Assembly: GCF_013373795.3 (NCBI RefSeq)
Contig: NZ_CP088022.1
Span: forward strand, 1,178,001-1,242,000
Origin: Bradyrhizobium quebecense
GTDB lineage: Bacteria > Pseudomonadota > Alphaproteobacteria > Rhizobiales > Xanthobacteraceae
Reading direction: 5' to 3'
Length of the DNA: 64,000 nucleotides
Below the pieces are notes generated by a model. It searched no databases, was not told the DNA's origin, and saw nothing but the letters and a program-made list of their open reading frames with translations. The first letter of the stretch is position 1. Each line of letters opens with the position of its first letter. Shown here piece after piece: positions 17,767-29,139 of this stretch. The position numbers and the translations under genes are program-made.

Positions 17767-18092
17767 TCTGATGATCTCCCCATTTCGCCCGTCCGAACGC
17801 GAAATGAGCCCCCGCTGCGTGTCTACACCGGGGCAAAAAAAGGGAATCTTCGGGCCTCAGAGGGCAAAAGCTGGGCAATTTCGTCCCGGTGGATCGTCGG
17901 CAGCAGCTGCACCGATGCGTGTCGGACCGATCGGTGTTATGAGCCCTTCCGTCTGCAAACCCGCCGGAGCGATTCTTTGAGGCTGATCCTCGGCGCGGCG
18001 TTGCCTGAGGGTGATTATCACGAGTTCGTGATGTCTTTGGCGTGCCGCGTAACAAACTGAAAGATCGGCCGAATTGCAATTCAGGAGCCTGC
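17767..18092. other. 326-bp divergent intergenic region with two inverted repeats
   Basis: No gene is seen here. Two inverted repeats stand out. CATTTCGC/GCGAAATG (17781-17806) lies 15 bp upstream of the secreted protein gene, and a 16-bp perfect palindrome lies at 18017-18032 (listed separately). An in-frame GTG at 18042 could extend the sigma-factor gene, but the RBS favours 18093. Confidence 0.5.
18017..18032. promoter_or_regulatory. 16-bp perfect palindrome upstream of ECF sigma factor gene
   Basis: ATCACGA-GT-TCGTGAT is a perfect inverted repeat ending 60 bp before the GTG start at 18093. It has the size and symmetry of a dimeric regulator's operator. The regulator is unknown. Confidence 0.35.
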
Positions 18093-18638
18093 GTGCGCGA
18101 ACGTGAGGATGAATGGACCGACCTGATGCGGTCGGCCATTTCAGGCGATGACGCGGCGTATCATCGCCTGCTCAAGGCCATCACGCCGGTACTCCGTGCC
18201 GCGGCGCGGCGTGGCTTGGCGCGCGCGGGACAACCGGTCGATCAGTCCGAGGACATCGTGCAGGACATCTTGTTGGCGGTGCACTTGAAGCGGCAGACCT
18301 GGGACACGAGCGCGCCGTTCGCGCCGTGGCTGTTCGCGATCGCGCGCAACAAGCTGATCGACGCCCTGCGCCGCCGCGGCAGGCGCATCTTCGTCAATAT
18401 CGATGATTTCGCCGAGACGCTGCCGGGGGAAATACCGGAGCCGACGGCCTCGCCCGGCGAGGTGACCGCCCAGTTGCAGGCGTTGCCCGCGCGGCAGCGC
18501 GACGTGCTGCAATCGATCGCGGTCGACAGCACCTCGATCAAGGACACCGCCGCGAAATTCGCGATGACCGAGGGCGCGGTGCGGGTCGCACTGCATCGTG
18601 GGCTTGCGAGCCTGACCGCGAAATTACGGGACCGATGA
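18093..18638 (+). CDS. ECF sigma factor, EcfF-like (paired with DUF1109 anti-sigma factor)
   Basis: An ECF-type sigma-70 factor of 181 residues. Region 2 includes DIVQDILLAVHLKRQTWD and FAPWLFAIARNKLIDALRRR; region 4 has the helix-turn-helix TSIKDTAAKFAMTEGAVRVALHRG. GTG 18093 is chosen because CAGGAG lies 5 bases upstream. An in-frame GTG at 18042 lacks an RBS and would add 17 residues. The TGA stop lies in ATGA with the next gene, a DUF1109/NrsF membrane protein. That order is the same as ecfF-osrA of Bradyrhizobium japonicum, an oxidative-stress-responsive pair, so autoregulated induction by reactive oxidants is the likely setting (inference). Confidence 0.85.
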   Translation: MREREDEWTDLMRSAISGDDAAYHRLLKAITPVLRAAARRGLARAGQPVDQSEDIVQDILLAVHLKRQTWDTSAPFAPWLFAIARNKLIDALRRRGRRIFVNIDDFAETLPGEIPEPTASPGEVTAQLQALPARQRDVLQSIAVDSTSIKDTAAKFAMTEGAVRVALHRGLASLTAKLRDR

Positions 18639-19279
18639 GCATGGACACCGATCAACTCATTCGAACCCTGACCGCCGACAATGCCTATCGGCCTCGTCCG
18701 ATCGGCCTTGCGCTGATGTTGGCGCTGCTGGCGGCGGCGCCGGTCTCGCTGCTGATCTTCTTCGCCGAGCTCGGCGTGCGGCCCGACGTGATGACCGCGA
18801 TGCATAATCCGTTCTTCGATCTGAAATTCGCGGTGACGCTGGCGCTCGCCGCCTCGGCGATTGCGGTCAGCCTGCATCTGTCGCGGCCGGAAGCCTCGCT
18901 GCGCAGCTTCGGCTGGTGGCTGCTGATTCCCGCCGGCATCCTCGTTGCCGCGATCAGCGGCGAGATGATGATGCCGCAGCGCACGCCGATGATGACGCGC
19001 CTGATCGGCAAGAACTCGGTGGCGTGCATGACCGCGATCCCCGCCATGTCGCTGCCGCTCTTGGTCGGCGCGCTGTACGGGCTGCGGCAGGGCGCACCGG
19101 CGCGGCCTGCGATCGCGGGCGCAGTCGCAGGCCTGCTCTCGGCAGGGCTCGCGGCCACCGTCTATGCGTCGCACTGCACCGATGACTCGCCGCTGTTCGT
19201 TGCCACCTGGTACACGCTGGCGACAGCGATCGTCGCAAGTGTCGGCGCGCTGATGGGAGCGAGGGCGCTACGATACTAG
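18635..19279 (+). CDS. DUF1109/NrsF-family membrane anti-sigma factor, OsrA-like
   Basis: A six-helix inner-membrane protein of the NrsF/DUF1109 family (214 residues from ATG 18635, 212 from ATG 18641). Such proteins hold their cognate ECF factor at the membrane and release it on stress. Two cysteines stand out: C131 in KNSVACMTA and C181 in ASHCTDDS. Counted from the second ATG these are C129 and C179, the numbers I remember for the redox-active pair of B. japonicum OsrA, which favours ATG 18641 and the OsrA assignment. It is coupled to the sigma gene by ATGA. The TAG stop overlaps that of the convergent DUF2336 gene in CTAG. Confidence 0.85.
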   Translation: MSMDTDQLIRTLTADNAYRPRPIGLALMLALLAAAPVSLLIFFAELGVRPDVMTAMHNPFFDLKFAVTLALAASAIAVSLHLSRPEASLRSFGWWLLIPAGILVAAISGEMMMPQRTPMMTRLIGKNSVACMTAIPAMSLPLLVGALYGLRQGAPARPAIAGAVAGLLSAGLAATVYASHCTDDSPLFVATWYTLATAIVASVGALMGARALRY

Positions 19280-21592: not shown

Positions 21593-22010
21593 GGTCTCGC
21601 CATTTCTGAAATCCGGCGAAAATCTAAGTGGGAAAGCCTTTAGGTTTGGTATCTTTTGGAACCGAATCTGCCCCGGTGAAACCCGGTCATCACCCTTGTT
21701 TCGTAAGGGGAATCCGTTCACGGAGGCGGGTCGGAAGCGGTCGGGGCGGGGGCTTGCGGCGGCGCCCGCTTCGCGACAGCGCTGGCTTGCCGGCAAAGCC
21801 TTGGTATGGTCGCGCCGGATGGTGCGAGTCCGCGAGAGTTTTCACTATTATGATACCGCTTACCGAGTCTCCGGCGATTTTTCCTCATTGGGATCGTCGA
21901 CTGTGTCATAGATCACACATGCGGTCAGGACATTGCCGTATTGTGAAGAATCTTGCCTCTCGCGTCGAACCACGCACCACCCCCCTCAGACCAACTTTGC
22001 GAGACGGCCA
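21593..22010. other. 418-bp divergent intergenic region
   Basis: It lies between the divergent diguanylate cyclase and ECF sigma genes. I see no gene in it. It holds a small CCCTT/AAGGG hairpin (21693-21709), a CRP-like inverted repeat (21902-21917) and an alternative in-frame TTG (21933) that could extend the sigma factor by 26 residues. Confidence 0.5.
21902..21917. promoter_or_regulatory. CRP-like inverted repeat TGTGT-N6-TCACA
   Basis: TGTGT at 21902-21906 and TCACA at 21913-21917 are separated by 6 bases, one mismatch from the CRP/FNR-type consensus TGTGA-N6-TCACA. It is about 94 bp upstream of the sigma-factor start. Suggestive only. Confidence 0.25.
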
Positions 22011-22580
22011 TTGAGCGCGACACAGGCGGCTTCAGACGAGGTTCTGATCGCTCGGATCGCTCAAGGCGACCGGCTCGCCATGCAGGTGCTGTACGGACGG
22101 CATCATGTCAGGGTGTACCGCTTCGGGCTTCGGCTCGTGCGGGACGAACAGGTGGCGGAGGACCTCATTAGCGAGGTCTTTCTGGACGTGTGGCGTCAGG
22201 CGGGCAAATTCGAGGGACGATCCGCCGTTTCAACCTGGCTTCTGGCGATTACCCGGTTCAAGGCGTTGTCTTCGCTGCGGCGAAGGAAAGACGCCGAACT
22301 GGACGATGAGGCCGCGAACGCGATCGAGGACACGTCCGACGATCCGGAAACGGTGGTGCAGAAGAAGGACACGGGTGACACGCTGCGTAAGTGCCTGACG
22401 GGACTATCGGCGGAACACCGGGAAATTGTCGATCTTGTCTACTATCACGAGAAATCCGTGGAAGACGTCGCAGAGATCGTCGGGATTCCGGAGAACACCG
22501 TGAAGACGCGCCTGTTCTATGCGCGCAAGAAACTTGCCGAGTTGCTGAAGGCAGCCGGTGTCGAGCGAGGTTGGCCATGA
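22011..22580 (+). CDS. ECF sigma factor of a sigma/anti-sigma/subtilase operon
   Basis: A 189-residue ECF sigma factor. Region 2 starts DEVLIARIAQGDRLAMQVLY, and region 4 has SVEDVAEIVGIPENTVKTRLFYARKKL. TTG 22011 is preferred: GAGACGG lies 6-7 bases upstream and region 2 begins a few residues later, whereas TTG 21933 adds a Pro/Arg-rich, non-family stretch. No ATG is suitable. The stop is coupled to the anti-sigma gene (ATGA). The third gene is a secreted subtilisin-like protease. I infer an envelope- or cell-surface-linked regulon, and ECF operons are usually autoregulated, but no promoter could be assigned with confidence. Confidence 0.83.
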   Translation: MSATQAASDEVLIARIAQGDRLAMQVLYGRHHVRVYRFGLRLVRDEQVAEDLISEVFLDVWRQAGKFEGRSAVSTWLLAITRFKALSSLRRRKDAELDDEAANAIEDTSDDPETVVQKKDTGDTLRKCLTGLSAEHREIVDLVYYHEKSVEDVAEIVGIPENTVKTRLFYARKKLAELLKAAGVERGWP

Positions 22581-23326
22581 TGGCTGCGAGCAACAAGAAG
22601 GTGCAGGGTCAAGATCCTGACGATGTCGAGATGCTGCTGCCCTGGCATGCGGCCGGCACGCTGAACGCGCGTGACGCGCGCCGCGTCGAGGACGCGCTCG
22701 CTTCGGATCCGGAACTGGCCAGGCAGTATGCCGTCATCCGCGAGGAATATGCCGAGACCATCGGCCTCAACGAGAGCCTCGGTGCGCCGTCTGCGCGTGC
22801 CATGCAGAAGCTGTTTGCCGCGATCGATGCCGAGCCGGAGCGCAAGCCGTCGGCGGGCGCGCGCATGTCGGCCTCCGTCTCGGAGTTCTTTTCGAAATTG
22901 TCGCCGCGGACGCTGGCCTGGTCGTCCAGCGTCGGTGCAATCGTTGTGTTGCTACAGGCGGGCGTGATCGGTGCGGTGCTGATGCGCAGCGAGCCGGCCT
23001 CGTTCCAGACCGCCTCGCTTGATGCCGCCGAGCAACGCAGCGCCCCCAGCGCACCGAGCGCGGCCGTCGCACCCAGTGCGCCGATCACCCGCGACCTCGG
23101 TGCCAGCGTGGCGGCCGCGCCGACGCGGCTGTTGGTGCGCTTCACGCCGGATGCCAGGATCGCCGAAATCACATCGCTGCTCGACAATTACCAGGGCGCG
23201 ATCCTCGACGGGAAGGGCGGCATGTTCCGCTTGCAGTTCCGCGCGATGGACAAGGACAGCGTCGCGGCGCTGATTGCCCGTTTGCAGAAAGAGAAGATCG
23301 TCAGCCTCACGGTCGAGACGCCGTAG
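22577..23326 (+). CDS. Membrane-anchored anti-sigma factor with C-terminal propeptide-like domain
   Basis: A 249-residue single-pass membrane protein. The cytoplasmic N-terminus (about 1-110) resembles anti-sigma domains (MLLPWHAAGTLNARDARRVE) but lacks the HxxxCxxC zinc motif. One membrane helix follows at about 113-136, then an Ala/Pro/Ser-rich periplasmic linker to about 180 and a compact alpha/beta domain at 182-249 (RLLVRFTP... to SLTVETP). The strand-helix-strand pattern of this last domain resembles the inhibitor-like propeptide in the adjacent protease (its residues 150-222). ATG 22577 overlaps the sigma-factor stop. It probably sequesters the sigma factor until a periplasmic signal triggers release. 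Confidence 0.75.
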   Translation: MMAASNKKVQGQDPDDVEMLLPWHAAGTLNARDARRVEDALASDPELARQYAVIREEYAETIGLNESLGAPSARAMQKLFAAIDAEPERKPSAGARMSASVSEFFSKLSPRTLAWSSSVGAIVVLLQAGVIGAVLMRSEPASFQTASLDAAEQRSAPSAPSAAVAPSAPITRDLGASVAAAPTRLLVRFTPDARIAEITSLLDNYQGAILDGKGGMFRLQFRAMDKDSVAALIARLQKEKIVSLTVETP

Positions 23327-23368
23327 CCATAACCAGTAGCTGACGGTCTGCGCCGAGTTGAGGTCACC

Positions 23369-25045
23369 ATGACCGCCAACAGCCGGACCAGATCGACGAA
23401 CAGAGCGGCCATTGCGGCCGCGGCGTTGTTGCTGGTCTCTGTTGCCGGCTCGGCCTACGCCCAGAATTTCATGCGATCGCCGATCGGCGGCAGGCCGCAG
23501 TTCTCCATCGGGCCGCGGGTCAATCCCGGCATCGGCAGGGCCGGTGGCAACGCCGGCGGCGGGCTGGACGGCACGGCTGGCCGCGCGCCGCTCCACGGCC
23601 CGGCGACGTCGTGGACCGGCGAGGGACCGCGATCGAGCATGCCGCCACCCCATGTGCGTGACGCCCCCCGTTTCTCTTCCGATTGCGATGACGGCACGCG
23701 CCAATGCTCCGGCCGGCCGGTCGCCGTGAACGGTGGCGGCAAGGGCGCTGCGAGGAAGGGCAGGGCCGGCGGTGGCGGCAGCAGCCGCGCGCAGGACGTG
23801 GCGGCCACGCGAACCGTGCCGAACGAACTCGTGGCGGAGATCGACGGCGCATTGACCGAGACCCAGACCGACGCGCTGGCGCGTCGCCATGGCCTGAGGC
23901 GGATCGCCTCGCAGAACATCCCGCTGCTGGGCGCGACGATCGGCCTGTTCCGCACGGACGGCAATCGCTCCGCCGACGCGGTGGCCCGCGACCTCGCAAG
24001 CGACAGCAGCGTCCGCTCCGTGCAGCCGAACTACCGTTACGCGCTGCAGGACCAGAAGCCGCCAGCGGGCGGCAGTGATCCGGCGCAATACGCCCAGGCG
24101 CAGCTGCGTCTGCCGGAGGCGCACAGGCTGGCGCGCGGGATGAACGTCACCATTGCCGTCATCGACTCCGGCGTTGATGCCGCCCATCCGGAACTGGCCA
24201 ACACGGTCGCGGATACGTTCGATGCGCTCGGTAGCAAGGATGGCCCGCATGCCCACGGCACCGCCGTCGCCGGCGTGATCGCTGCGCGCGTCAGGCTGAC
24301 GGGGAGCGCGCCGGAAGTGCGGATCCTGGCCATCCGTGCCTTTGGTGCGGCCGCCGGCGGCGCCGAGAGCACGTCCTACGTGATCCTCAGGAGCCTCGAT
24401 TACGCGGTGGCGCACGGCGCGCAGATCGTGAACATGAGCTTTGCCGGACCGCAGGACGCACTTGTCGCGCGCGCCGTGGCCGCCGCCGCGGCGAGGGACG
24501 TCGTGCTGGTTGCCGCGGCCGGCAATGCCGGCCCGAAATCGCCGCCGCTGTATCCGGCCGCCAATCCCGACGTGATCGCGGTCGGCGGCATCGATGCCGG
24601 CGAGCGGCTGATGGCTGCCTCGAACCGCGGCAGCTACATCGCGTTGGCAGCGCCGGGCGCCGATCTCCTGGTGCCGGTGCCGGACGGCAAATACCAGCTG
24701 ATGTCGGGCACCTCCTTTTCGGCCGCGTTCGTCAGCGGCATCGCGGCACTGGTGCTGGAGCGCAGTCCGGCATTGAAGCCCGCCGAGGTGCGCAAGGTTC
24801 TGACCGGCACAGCCCGCGATCTCGGAACACCCGGACGTGACGATCTGTTCGGGGCGGGCGAGGCGGACGCGCTTGCCGCGGTGATGGCGGCGACCAGCGC
24901 GCCCGTCGCGGCCACCTTGGACAAACCGTCGCAGCCTGCACATGAGGCGGACGGCAATAACACTTCCGTGAGCCGCGCGTTGAATGAAGCGGCGCCGTCG
25001 ATCGCATCGGACGATTCCGCCGCAAATCACCGCGCCGCACAGTGA
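23369..25045 (+). CDS. Secreted S8 (subtilisin-like) serine protease
   Basis: A 558-residue exported subtilase. It has a signal peptide (about 1-31, ending SAYA) and a Gly/Pro/Arg-rich linker (35-145). An I9/fervidolysin-like propeptide domain lies at about 150-222, and the catalytic domain begins around 240. The triad is complete: D266 in VIDSGVD, H296 in AHGTAVAG, S449 in SGTSFSAAF; an oxyanion-hole Asn is seen in AAAGNAG. The gene begins 42 bp after the anti-sigma gene on the same strand, giving a three-gene operon. The protease could be an effector of the regulon or part of the signal that removes the anti-sigma factor. Confidence 0.88.
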   Translation: MTANSRTRSTNRAAIAAAALLLVSVAGSAYAQNFMRSPIGGRPQFSIGPRVNPGIGRAGGNAGGGLDGTAGRAPLHGPATSWTGEGPRSSMPPPHVRDAPRFSSDCDDGTRQCSGRPVAVNGGGKGAARKGRAGGGGSSRAQDVAATRTVPNELVAEIDGALTETQTDALARRHGLRRIASQNIPLLGATIGLFRTDGNRSADAVARDLASDSSVRSVQPNYRYALQDQKPPAGGSDPAQYAQAQLRLPEAHRLARGMNVTIAVIDSGVDAAHPELANTVADTFDALGSKDGPHAHGTAVAGVIAARVRLTGSAPEVRILAIRAFGAAAGGAESTSYVILRSLDYAVAHGAQIVNMSFAGPQDALVARAVAAAAARDVVLVAAAGNAGPKSPPLYPAANPDVIAVGGIDAGERLMAASNRGSYIALAAPGADLLVPVPDGKYQLMSGTSFSAAFVSGIAALVLERSPALKPAEVRKVLTGTARDLGTPGRDDLFGAGEADALAAVMAATSAPVAATLDKPSQPAHEADGNNTSVSRALNEAAPSIASDDSAANHRAAQ

Positions 25046-25588: not shown

Positions 25589-26083
25589 ATGACACATCGG
25601 ACCGACGTGGCCAGAGGCCAGGAGATCGTTGCACGCTGGTGCAACCTTGCCGAGCAAAGGCTGGAGCACCTCAACGAGCTGTTCGAAACCGGACGCTGGC
25701 GCCGCTATCACAGCGAGCAGGCCTTTCTCGAAAACATCAGGGAAGCCCGGGCCGCGGTCGACATCTGGCGCGAATTGCTGACCCGCGAAGCCTCGCTCGA
25801 CAATTCGCCGGTCGATCTGTCCTGGCTCGGCCGCGGCAAGTCGAAGCTGCCGCCGCGCGATCTTTCGTCGGTGCAGCAGCGCCGCTCGGAGACGGCGACA
25901 TTGGCCGAGGCCGCGATGACCGCAGTCGCGGCCGCGATGGAAACGGCCGCCGAGGTCCTCGAGCAGCCGCCCGTTGTGGCCGACGCACCGCCGCTGGAGA
26001 AGCCCCCTCCGGTCATGCCGCCGCCGGTGCTCGATCTCGACACCATCCAGCGGCGCTATCCGCTGCTGCGCAACGCGCTGTAG
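25589..26083 (+). CDS. TIGR03809 family protein
   Basis: A 164-residue soluble, helical protein (Trp/Glu/Arg-rich first half, Pro-rich 125-145, ending RRYPLLRNAL). It matches my memory of TIGR03809, a family restricted to Bradyrhizobium-like bacteria and found next to TIGR03808, which is indeed the convergent neighbour 8 bp away. Function unknown; the constant pairing suggests a shared role. There is no signal peptide, so this partner stays cytoplasmic while TIGR03808 is exported. Confidence 0.78.
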   Translation: MTHRTDVARGQEIVARWCNLAEQRLEHLNELFETGRWRRYHSEQAFLENIREARAAVDIWRELLTREASLDNSPVDLSWLGRGKSKLPPRDLSSVQQRRSETATLAEAAMTAVAAAMETAAEVLEQPPVVADAPPLEKPPPVMPPPVLDLDTIQRRYPLLRNAL

Positions 26084-27462: not shown

Positions 27463-27810
27463 GGGCACAGCCCTCGCAAACATTCGCGAGCGGTGACGTT
27501 CGCGCCCGAGTGGTAGCGCGAAATGCGGCGCGGCATGGTGAACACGCCGACGCAGCCGGGCGATTGTTGGCGGTAGGGTTAACCCCCGGTGCAGCCTGTT
27601 CACGTTGTCAAACAACGATCTCGCGGCGTCATCACCGGCGAAAGCGGGTGATCCAGTATTCCAGAGGCCGCAGTCAAGGCGCGGATTAATAGCATTTCCT
27701 CCAAAGCAGACCTGCGTCGTGTGCTAATGTTTCTTATTTCGTATTTGCAATTGCCACGAAAAGCTCTTCGATCGTCTAAGCTTCAACACGTCGCGGTACT
27801 GGAGTTGGAT
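27463..27810. other. 348-bp divergent intergenic region
   Basis: It lies between the TIGR03808 gene and the cyclase fusion gene. It contains GGGTTAACCCCC at about 27577 and the repeat at 27629-27672. Otherwise I see no gene. Confidence 0.5.
27629..27672. repeat. Dispersed repeat ATCACC...GGTGATCCAGTATTCCAGAG
   Basis: A hairpin (ATCACC at 27631-27636 and GGTGAT at 27647-27652, with a GGCGAAAGC-type loop) is followed by CCAGTATTCCAGAG. I remember this combination as a recurring intergenic repeat in Bradyrhizobium. It occurs only once here. Confidence 0.5.
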
Positions 27811-29139
27811 ATGGCCGATTTCATTATGCCCCAGACGCAATATGCGCGCAGTGGCGATGTCAGTATTGCCTATCAGGTGACCGGGGACGGGCCGATCGAC
27901 CTTCTGATCGTGCCTGGCTCGATCTCCCACCTTGAGGTCGTGCATGAGTTGCCGTGCATAAGCAACAACGCGCAGCGGTTAGGACGCTTCGCCCGGATCA
28001 TAAGCTTTGACAAACGCGGTCAGGGACTGTCCGATCGCGTGTCCGGCGTGCCGTCGTTGGAAGAGCGAATGGACGACGTTCGCGCCGTGCTCGATGCGGT
28101 GGGATCCCGCAAGACGGTCTTGTTGGGCATGTCGGAAGGCTGTCCCATGAGCGTCCTCTTTTCGGCCACACATCCAGATCGTGTTTCCCACCTGGTTTTG
28201 GTCGGGGGCTTCGTGCGCGCGGGCTACTCGATCCCCGCGGCCCAGTTCGAGGCGTTTGCTGACAGGGCTGTTGCAAACTGGGGCTCGGGGCAGATGATGA
28301 AACACGTTGTCGGGCTGGCGGACGCTTCCCAAGAGCAGCTCGCAGCGCTCGGCAAGTTCGAGCGGATGAGTTGCAGCCCCGGTGCCTTCAAGGCGATCAT
28401 GGTGATGAACCGACTGATCGACGTAACGCCGGTGTTGCAAAGCGTGCGCGTCCCAACTCTCGTGCTGCACAGCCAGGCCGATGCCGTGGTGCCCGTATCG
28501 GAGGGACGGAAGCTGGGGGCTGCAATACCTGGCGCGAGATACATCGAATACGAGGGTCTTCCGCACGGTGTCTTCTTTACGGCCGAATGCGAACGAGTGA
28601 TCGGCGACATCGAGGAGTTTGTCACCGGTCACCGTCCTGAGGCAGGAGAGGATGTCGATCGTGTCCTGGCTACCGTCCTGTTCACGGACATCGTCAACTC
28701 CACGACGAAAGCCATCGAGGTCGGTGATCGCCGCTGGCACGAACTGCTTGATTCTCATGACCGCTTGGCAGCACAGGTCGTCGAGAGGCATCGGGGGAAG
28801 CTGGTGAAGAATACGGGCGATGGAATCTTGGCGACGTTCGATGGACCTGGACGCGGCGTTCGCTGTGCTCTCGCACTGGGCGAAGCTGCGCGCCAGCTCG
28901 GGTTGCCGCTGCGCGCCGGACTGCACACCGGCGAGATTGAGGTGCGCGGCAGGGACGTCGGCGGAATAGCAGTTCACGTCGCCGCTCGCGTGATGGGGCG
29001 GTCCGATGCAAATGAAGTGCTCGTATCGCGCGTCGTGACCGACCTGGTCGCGGGAGCCGGATTGAAATTTGCGGAGCGCGGCTCGTTCGATCTCAAGGGC
29101 ATCCCGGGGGCTTGGGATTTGTTCGCTGCTGTCCAGTAG
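27811..29139 (+). CDS. Alpha/beta-hydrolase fused to class III adenylate/guanylate cyclase
   Basis: A 442-residue two-domain protein. Residues about 10-270 form an alpha/beta hydrolase with nucleophile S108 in GMSEG, an acid in HSQADAVVP and a histidine in GLPHGVFF, so the triad looks complete. Residues about 285-440 are a class III cyclase: metal aspartates D293 (LFTDIVNST) and D337 (NTGDG), K333 and R393 are kept. The position normally held by the transition-state Asn is His (H389 in AVHVAAR). ATG 27811 follows CTGGAG; the frame extends 30 codons further but lacks an RBS. The hydrolase may act as a small-molecule sensor controlling cAMP or cGMP output. Confidence 0.87.
   Translation: MADFIMPQTQYARSGDVSIAYQVTGDGPIDLLIVPGSISHLEVVHELPCISNNAQRLGRFARIISFDKRGQGLSDRVSGVPSLEERMDDVRAVLDAVGSRKTVLLGMSEGCPMSVLFSATHPDRVSHLVLVGGFVRAGYSIPAAQFEAFADRAVANWGSGQMMKHVVGLADASQEQLAALGKFERMSCSPGAFKAIMVMNRLIDVTPVLQSVRVPTLVLHSQADAVVPVSEGRKLGAAIPGARYIEYEGLPHGVFFTAECERVIGDIEEFVTGHRPEAGEDVDRVLATVLFTDIVNSTTKAIEVGDRRWHELLDSHDRLAAQVVERHRGKLVKNTGDGILATFDGPGRGVRCALALGEAARQLGLPLRAGLHTGEIEVRGRDVGGIAVHVAARVMGRSDANEVLVSRVVTDLVAGAGLKFAERGSFDLKGIPGAWDLFAAVQ

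Follow-up and report, generated by a model that had tools for sequence, protein, structure and literature searches.

What many anti-sigma factors respond to in the periplasm is obscure. The locus described here raises the question of whether such a factor can be governed by a protease encoded beside it. In the window (the whole 64,000-nucleotide stretch of Bradyrhizobium quebecense DNA that was analyzed), genes for an ECF sigma factor, a membrane anti-sigma factor (ASF) and a secreted subtilase lie together, and the sensor half of the ASF is recognizably related to the regulatory domain of a protease. Since the gene for the candidate partner adjoins that of the ASF, and does so in several gene orders, the signal is directly testable. 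The preliminary description of the locus had proposed that the protease may bind or cut the ASF as if the latter were its own propeptide, whereby the enzyme might report on its own folding or on the state of the envelope.

The sigma, anti-sigma and subtilase operon

The sigma factor gene (22011-22580, + strand; TTG start, 189 aa) encodes Pfam Sigma70_r2 and r4_2 domains, and its product belongs to the NCBIfam PRK12515 subfamily (348.5 bits, cut-off 236). It overlaps by ATGA the ASF gene (22577-23326, + strand; ATG start, 249 aa), which is followed after a gap of 42 bp by the subtilase (peptidase S8) gene (23369-25045, + strand; ATG start, 558 aa; PF00082, E 2.8e-45). The layout first described, with its single strand, overlap and gap, was confirmed in all three coordinates. 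An ECF-type promoter motif, YGAACC-N17-GACCAA, is conserved upstream of the sigma gene (21966-21994, + strand). Of 102 homologous loci, contig-end loci included, 78 have the form GAACC-N17-GAC[CT]A 5' of sigma (53/70 with adjacent S8 and 25/32 without detected S8); in mononucleotide shuffles its frequency was 0.06%. The three genes form a real operon behind a conserved ECF-type promoter. Pfam searches of a downstream 164-aa gene and of a 50-residue fragment gave nothing at E ≤ 0.1.

The window's ASF matched zf-HC2 and the NCBIfam antisigma model, both under cut-off, and has the layout of an ECF anti-sigma factor: its gene overlaps and lies downstream of the sigma gene, and it carries one membrane helix (residues ~118-136; 22928-22984, + strand; hydropathy maximum 2.27), the only hydrophobic segment. 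It is single copy in its own genome, and sigma adjoins the ASF in 33/33 loci of the genome-contig set. Binding and inhibition of sigma by the ASF are putative; the distance correlation of 0.77 between the cytoplasmic half and sigma is consistent with them. The helix is followed by an A/P/S-rich linker (residues ~140-180; 22994-23116, + strand), the fastest-evolving part of the protein, whose mean dN/dS exceeds that of the other three ASF regions in seven of eight groups (all but Brady S8+ elkanii), and by a C-terminal domain (CTD, residues 183-249; 23123-23323, + strand), so that the architecture of the 249-aa protein stands as originally drawn. RseA, RsiW and RsiV are ECF anti-sigma factors under regulated intramembrane proteolysis. 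The ASF shares with them a cytoplasmic sigma-binding half, one membrane helix and a periplasmic sensor half, but here the sensor half is prodomain-like, the gene of a probable protease partner adjoins, and site-1 cleavage is putative.

The subtilase begins with a putative signal peptide (residues 1-31; 23369-23461, + strand), with a hydrophobic stretch at 13-31 and with A31 and Q32 conserved at 90% or more. A prodomain of the Fervidolysin type (residues 149-225; 23813-24043, + strand) was assigned by PF22148 and AlphaFold2; PF22148 matched 37 of 59 orthologues at E ≤ 1, the window's own protein weakly (E 0.08), and N221 is present in all 59 aligned orthologues. The S8 catalytic domain was assigned by Pfam (residues 258-497; 24140-24859, + strand), and its best Foldseek match was unprocessed pro-subtilisin E (3whi, E 1.3e-29). 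Catalytic D266, H296 and N386 occur in 59/59 aligned orthologues and S449 in 58/59; thus both the Asp-His-Ser triad and the S8 fold were found in the window's subtilase. The orthologue without S449 (L136) appears frameshifted. The window's subtilase is the only match of its kind found in its genome (E ≤ 0.001).

Relationship of the CTD to the subtilase prodomain

AlphaFold2 models of the CTD (ASF residues 183-248; pLDDT 87) and of the prodomain (subtilase residues 149-225; pLDDT about 95 over most of its length) both showed a beta-alpha-beta-beta-alpha-beta order with matching spacing, the CTD having strands at 183-189, 208-213, 216-221 and 242-248 and helices at 195-205 and 226-237. Alignment of the CTD and prodomain profiles of the window's family with hhalign scored 31.0 (probability 85), against 18.9 for the best of 500 column shuffles and 17.6 for reversed profiles. 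Independent data from other families gave 24.2 against a control maximum of 17.4. The score of the window family's CTD profile against distant prodomains, 17.9, was not above the best shuffles of other pairings. The likeness of fold suggested in the preliminary description is therefore upheld by the predicted strand and helix order and by the profile comparison.

The window's ASF alone gave no prodomain match in Pfam and no match in the PDB, and the CTD profile gave three weak PDB matches (best E 0.19), no prodomain among them. PF22148 scored 27 bits (cut-off 21) on the distant L161 ASF, the only one above cut-off among 102 aligned, and matched 7 of 33 distant ASFs at E ≤ 1, several of which are close kin and so not independent; other non-zf-HC2 Pfam families matched at most one each. 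A CTD-only profile run against whole genomes matched an S8 protease of 1036 aa over residues 316-378, a stretch that immediately precedes the S8 domain and lies inside a PF22148 hit scoring 18.1 bits (cut-off 21, not reached). Foldseek with the CTD ranked the subtilisin BPN' prosegment first among 350,542 chains, with an uncertain margin over unrelated folds. The CTD might be just another ferredoxin-like domain, alike by convergence of fold; sequence-profile similarity in two separate data sets, the PF22148 matches, the recovery of an S8 prodomain by the CTD profile, the Foldseek rank and the association with S8 all speak against this, and we regard it as very improbable. Mere convergence was accordingly rejected as the main reading on the profile scores, the PF22148 matches and the match to an S8 prodomain.

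The CTD and the Fervidolysin-type prodomain are probably homologous. The CTD is like the PF22148 prodomain in fold order, spacing and profile, some distant CTDs matching the model itself. It is unlike it in position, standing in a separate gene, C-terminal to the helix of a membrane ASF and not N-terminal to S8 in one chain, and in that the domains of the window's family are tail-less and mostly without the Gln/Asn caps.

Association with S8 proteases, selection and coevolution

ASF homologues were found in 97 of 149 genomes of the window's family. The survey used 90 of the 97, leaving out the window's own genome, G007, G012, G029, G103, G143 and G148, and removal of three contig-end loci left 87. 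S8 adjoins the ASF in 63/87, and is absent or broken with the ASF kept in 24/87, a count that includes some incomplete drafts. These 24 genomes have a close protease relative elsewhere (8), weaker S8 matches (11) or none at E ≤ 1e-10 (5); no sigma gene was detected next to the ASF at L125 or L126, and detection was weak at L106. In the genome-contig set, which overlaps the family survey and comprised 33 loci before three contig-end loci were dropped, S8 is present in 21/30, one of them frameshifted (L010). Broken S8 genes, at L009 and L110, were scored as absent.

Outside the window's family, CTD-bearing ASFs have S8 adjacent in 30/33 loci, in three gene orders, compared with 0/11 for other zf-HC2 loci (Fisher 4.7e-8, counting related loci as independent, with 7/33 from one genus-rich family, f174, and two control loci, L259 and L262, shortened by contig ends). 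Three weak class-search matches, spurious by sequence (L249-L251), were excluded from the set of 15, and two loci without S8 (L285 and L291) were included in the set of 18. Five further CTD-profile matches were not counted among the 33. They comprise an S8 prodomain, two ASFs accompanied by S8 and sigma, and two accompanied by neither, of which L296 looks spurious. A plasmid search with the L246 ASF gave no match. Conserved gene association, to which the preliminary description had looked for support, was thus found, and an anti-sigma factor of this type mostly has a neighbouring protease as well as a similar fold. The recurrent pairing in many related bacteria suggests that protease and switch communicate.

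On the other hand, S8 presence switches at least 9 times in the tree of the window's family (15 by parsimony), and the CTD is under purifying selection in three groups without S8 (dN/dS 0.19-0.40; pairwise group means, and S8 loss may postdate the group ancestors; L094, a congener in g28, retains S8). Since S8 presence changes repeatedly and the CTD is constrained without it, S8 was rejected as an obligatory partner in this family. These results would fit an explanation in which the regulon merely includes the protease as an output, its adjacency reflecting co-regulation, and the CTD, prodomain-derived or convergent, senses something else; retention of the promoter motif in 25/32 loci without detected S8 and the loss of most caps and tails point the same way. 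Beyond the family, however, CTD-type ASFs have S8 as an almost constant neighbour (three gene orders, and 0/11 for the controls), which is more than simple operon inertia would account for, and we consider the output-only explanation unlikely.

The partial distance correlation between CTD and prodomain was 0.30 (0/2000 permutations as high), similar to that between prodomain and S8 (0.31), and that between the CTD and its own cytoplasmic half was 0.07. A mirror-tree analysis with linear controls only had given 0.38 for CTD and prodomain, the partial-distance version lowering most effects. The coevolution signal is not clean, since values of 0.19 (0/2000 permutations) for membrane segment and prodomain, 0.18 for CTD and S8 and 0.16 for CTD and sigma were also obtained.

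The C-terminal end of the CTD and the proposed mechanism

The CTD ends seven residues past the last conserved valine (V+7) in 110 of 130 ASF sequences, the window's included; the 130 were drawn from both locus sets, near-duplicates included. Prodomains are conserved on to about V+12, which, on alignment to subtilisin, would be their cleavage position. At V+4 and V+6 they carry Gln (80/88) and Asn (86/88), whereas the CTDs carry V/A (100/130) and A/T (95/130), the window's having V and T. Distant CTDs often have Gln/Glu near V+4, and 0/34 have Asn at the cap position, in both cases with the register uncertain by one residue. The cap pair of subtilisin BPN' is given as Glu69/Asp71 in PMC6993865. 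In the window's family the CTD therefore appears mostly to lack helix-cap residues and to lack the active-site tail. Cutting of the CTD as a propeptide is disfavoured because it ends before the active-site tail and the caps are mostly absent, and cleavage at a propeptide-like P1 site was rejected, most CTDs ending short of that position. The initial proposal that the ASF is treated as the protease's own propeptide is not sustained, the more so as purifying selection maintains the CTD in groups that have no adjacent protease.

The CTD could instead be a prodomain acting in trans, which inhibits or chaperones the subtilase while the ASF tethers it at the membrane, free protease lifting the anti-sigma block. 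The relationship between the domains and the operon linkage agree with this, and a stand-alone propeptide-like inhibitor, SUB1-ProM, exists, likewise encoded apart from its protease; it keeps capping residues Glu146 and Asn148 and a C-terminal extension (PMC6993865), which are mostly absent from the CTD in the window's family. Given also the 0/34 count for Asn at the printed register (uncertain by one residue) and the retention of the CTD where S8 is absent, we find a trans-acting prodomain improbable.

The reading we prefer, and to which we give about an even chance, is that the tail-less relative of the prodomain is a docking module coupling subtilase activity to cleavage of the ASF. Sigma would be held at the membrane by the ASF, and the subtilase exported as a zymogen inhibited by its prodomain. 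The mature enzyme, or another periplasmic protease where the subtilase has been lost, would recognize the CTD and cut the exposed flexible linker, leaving the CTD intact, whereupon the site-2 protease RseP would release sigma. If true, protease maturation would be linked to transcription, and lineages with the sensor but without an adjacent protease would be natural controls.

A wider reading, which we advance tentatively and hold to be rather doubtful, would make this module, spread through the phylum on that view, a bacterial equivalent of the site-1-protease (S1P) pathway of eukaryotes. The subtilase would be the site-1 protease and the ASF would bear a tail-less prodomain decoy docking on the surface vacated when the protease sheds its prodomain, so that the switch would read the amount of mature, properly folded protease in the envelope. 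SPRING is a precedent for the docking reading preferred above: according to PMC11231238 it binds S1P on a surface largely overlapping that of the prodomain, with the active site not bound, and has no conserved structural elements in common with the S1P prodomain. Both cases would involve a subtilase as candidate site-1 protease and a partner that occupies the surface bound by the prodomain while the active site stays open, but here the prodomain-like part would be in the substrate.

PMC6180224 describes Sinorhizobium meliloti RpoE6-EcfR6 (ECF26) with a divergent, sigma-induced serine protease gene, SMa0142. The likeness is that of a sigma/anti-sigma pair with a serine protease as neighbour; equivalence was considered, but ECF26 promoters are GGAATA-type in that source and those here GAACC-type. 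ECF54 also has a subtilase near the sigma gene, but is described (PMC8999054) without an anti-sigma factor and with proteolysis proposed to control sigma. Among the literature matches listed, from a scope outside which most subscription journals fell, there was no anti-sigma factor with a prodomain-like domain, and one may be in print.

Under the docking reading, freed sigma would drive envelope genes and its own operon, protease included, in positive feedback; the operon is probably autoregulated. One strong and a second, weak M50 (RseP-type) match were found in the window's own genome. YGAACC-N17-GACCAA occurs there eight times, with none for the reversed-pattern control. Three of the seven other sites gave no Pfam family, and the remaining four make up a candidate regulon of DUF350, SPFH/Band 7, a trypsin-like protease with a PG-binding domain and a TPR protein.

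Organization and conservation of the operon

The window belongs to a genome of Bradyrhizobium type, to judge by its nearest named relatives, which are Bradyrhizobium. The gene arrangement of the preliminary description was confirmed: an ECF-type sigma factor gene, assigned by domain matches (22011-22580, TTG start), overlaps by ATGA the gene of a 249-aa membrane anti-sigma factor (ASF, 22577-23326), and a subtilase (S8) gene begins 42 bp later (23369-25045). A single membrane helix of the ASF, seen as a hydrophobic segment at about residues 118-136, is followed by a linker rich in A, P and S that evolves fast as judged by dN/dS, and by a prodomain-like C-terminal domain (CTD). The subtilase has a hydrophobic, signal-like start; in its AlphaFold2 model a long stretch of low confidence precedes the prodomain and the S8 domain, and the tail is again of low confidence. 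Another ECF sigma gene with its anti-sigma gene lies 3 kb upstream (18042-19279), the anti-sigma factor being of the NrsF type (PF06532, 193 bits), and 27784-29139 encodes an alpha/beta hydrolase joined with a guanylate-cyclase-type domain in one protein.

The ASF was found in 97 of 149 genomes of the window's family. The preliminary description had looked to gene order in other genomes for support, and the adjacent S8 gene does recur: it lies directly downstream of the ASF in 63 of the 87 usable loci (90 taken in) of the family, and accompanies 30 of the 33 CTD-bearing ASF loci outside it. The latter came from searches with the CTD profile alone at class level (385 genomes; S8 at 14 of 15 loci) and phylum level (398 genomes; S8 at 16 of 18 further loci). 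As a control, 11 zf-HC2 anti-sigma loci were taken, which came from 9 of the 41 genomes searched; neither CTD nor S8 was present in the examined stretches around them, two of which were incomplete. The association (30/33 versus 0/11) gave a Fisher probability of 4.7e-8 with related loci treated as independent, which they are not, and 7.6e-6 when counted by family (14/15 versus 0/9).

Three gene orders were seen across the CTD loci: sigma-ASF-S8, as in the window; S8-sigma-ASF, at L274, L275 and on a Methylocapsa plasmid (one small gene between); and an arrangement in which the ASF lies between sigma and S8 but on the strand opposite to both. In this last order, seen in two different families (L242 and L286), the ASF is divergent from S8. 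On the plasmid, pRX1 of Methylocapsa polymorpha (NZ_CP136863.1), S8 lies upstream of sigma and an ASF annotated only as hypothetical protein. One genome (G628) carries the whole module twice (L287 and L293).

Probable relationship between the CTD and subtilase prodomains

The fold comparison proposed in the preliminary description was carried out with AlphaFold2, and the order of strands (E) and helices (H) agrees between the CTD (E183-189 H195-205 E208-213 E216-221 H226-237 E242-248; pLDDT 86.9; ASF numbering) and the prodomain (E149-159 H164-173 E176-184 E189-196 H202-210 E215-225). The top Foldseek match of the CTD model among 350,542 PDB chains was the subtilisin BPN' prosegment (1spb_P), at an E-value of only 0.012, and the S8 enzymes with prosegment 3whi, 3cnq and 3t41 were also within the top 50. 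The agreement of the predicted folds is by itself no proof of descent, because ribosomal S6, BLUF and ACT domains scored similarly to prosegments in Foldseek and unrelated ferredoxin-like folds ranked equal to or above prodomains in VIA-align.

The sequence evidence is stronger. Alignment of 116 CTDs with 81 prodomains by hhalign gave a score of 31.0 (probability 85.4, P 5.8e-6, 63 columns), compared with at most 18.9 in 500 column shuffles, 17.6 for a reversed profile and at most 14.6 for S8-domain windows. Fifteen CTDs and 13 prodomains drawn separately from other families scored 24.2, with 500 shuffles at or below 17.4, and crossing the two sets gave 27.3 in one direction but no more than 17.9 in the other. 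PF22148, the Pfam Fervidolysin-type prodomain model, matched the ASF of L161 above its cut-off (27 bits versus 21) and, at E ≤ 1, 7 of the 33 distant ASFs, several of the 33 being close kin; apart from it and zf-HC2, no Pfam family matched more than one of the 33. It matched only 1 of 102 ASFs in an alignment mainly of the window's family, and the Pfam search gave no PF22148 match in the window's own ASF. Over 398 genomes the CTD-only profile also matched an S8 protease of 1036 aa, at residues 316-378, shortly ahead of the S8 domain and inside a PF22148 match that is below the model cut-off (18.1 versus 21). Taken from these sequence comparisons, common descent of the CTD and the S8 prodomain is likely.

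Distance correlations over 58 loci (Poisson distances, quadratic controls) gave 0.77 for the positive control, the cytoplasmic part of the ASF with sigma. The CTD-prodomain value was 0.30 (0 of 2000 permutations as high) and the prodomain-S8 value 0.31; the CTD correlated at 0.18 with S8, 0.16 with sigma, 0.14 with the membrane segment and 0.07 with the cytoplasmic part, which gave -0.11 with the prodomain. The prodomain correlates with the membrane segment as well (0.19, 0 of 2000), so that rate changes common to the envelope side in general may account for part of the signal.

Differences from a propeptide and absence of the adjacent protease

In prodomains, position +4 relative to the last conserved Val is Gln (80/88) and position +6 is Asn (86/88), which we take to correspond to subtilisin Glu69 and Asp71; beyond these positions the chain continues as Y/F-x-Y-x-L-Q. 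In family CTDs these positions are mostly V/A and A/T, and for 110 of 130 homologues +7 is exactly the last residue, suggesting that the C-terminus itself may matter. Subtilisin Glu69 and Asp71 are described as capping helices of the protease (PMC6993865). With the caps missing and the chain ending at +7, the CTD of the window's ASF is not expected to reach into the active site in the manner of a propeptide, which speaks against the propeptide-like binding or cutting put forward in the preliminary description. Among distant CTDs, Gln or Glu near +4 is frequent (e.g. VASAQRR, VETVQRD) and some finish in AEP-type motifs resembling S8 prodomains, the register being uncertain by one residue; a few extend to about +13.

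An obligatory pairing of ASF and S8 within the window's family is contradicted by 24 of its 87 usable genomes, which retain the ASF but have no intact S8 gene next to it (sigma undetected at two of these loci and weak at one). S8 relics persist at five loci (L009, L018, L023, L029 and L110). Whole-genome searches of these 24 genomes and G101 revealed, among the 24, some of them incomplete, 8 with a close protease relative at another place (E 7e-149 or lower), 11 with weaker S8 matches and 5 without any at E ≤ 1e-10. When presence of S8 is mapped on a tree built from sigma and ASF, with 93 labelled loci, it changes 15 times, gains and losses being undistinguished, and at least nine changes are forced by well-supported branches. 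No Pfam match was obtained for the 164-aa protein encoded at 25589-26083; at seven or more loci lacking a complete S8 gene (L008, L011, L016, L018, L020, L023 and L032), its relative lies downstream of the ASF.

Mean pairwise dN/dS of the CTD was 0.26, 0.40 and 0.19 in three S8-less groups, below their linker values (0.46-0.60), and 0.12-0.27 in four S8-bearing groups, with the caution that S8 loss may not predate the ancestor of each group; a further group with S8 genes elsewhere in the genome gave 0.57 (linker 1.06). The constraint in the S8-less groups suggests that the CTD seems to be functional even without an adjacent protease.

Proposed mechanism and candidate regulon

We infer docking and all later steps as follows. 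The ASF would hold sigma. Its CTD would be recognised by, but would not plug, the mature subtilase or a protease standing in for it, which would cut the ASF linker; RseP would then free sigma, boosting the operon. The genome holding the window has one strong M50 (RseP-type) match. A precedent for the proposed docking is eukaryotic S1P/SPRING, in which a partner can use the prodomain surface with the active site left open (PMC11231238). Among the matches listed in the open-licence literature, none described an anti-sigma factor that carries a domain resembling a protease prodomain.

The motif GAACC-N17-GAC[CT]A was present upstream of sigma in 78 of 102 loci, and in 49 of those its first position is 45 nt ahead of the start codon. 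This points to probable autoregulation of the operon. The strict form YGAACC-N17-GACCAA occurred at 8 sites in the window's genome (reversed control, 0) and at 151 sites over 13 genomes of the genus Bradyrhizobium (reversed control, 8). Downstream genes at three of the seven other sites in the window's genome (L198-L204) matched no Pfam family; the remaining four sites precede genes for DUF350, SPFH/Band 7, a trypsin-like protease with a PG-binding domain and a TPR protein, giving the candidate regulon an envelope flavour at 4 of 7 predicted sites.
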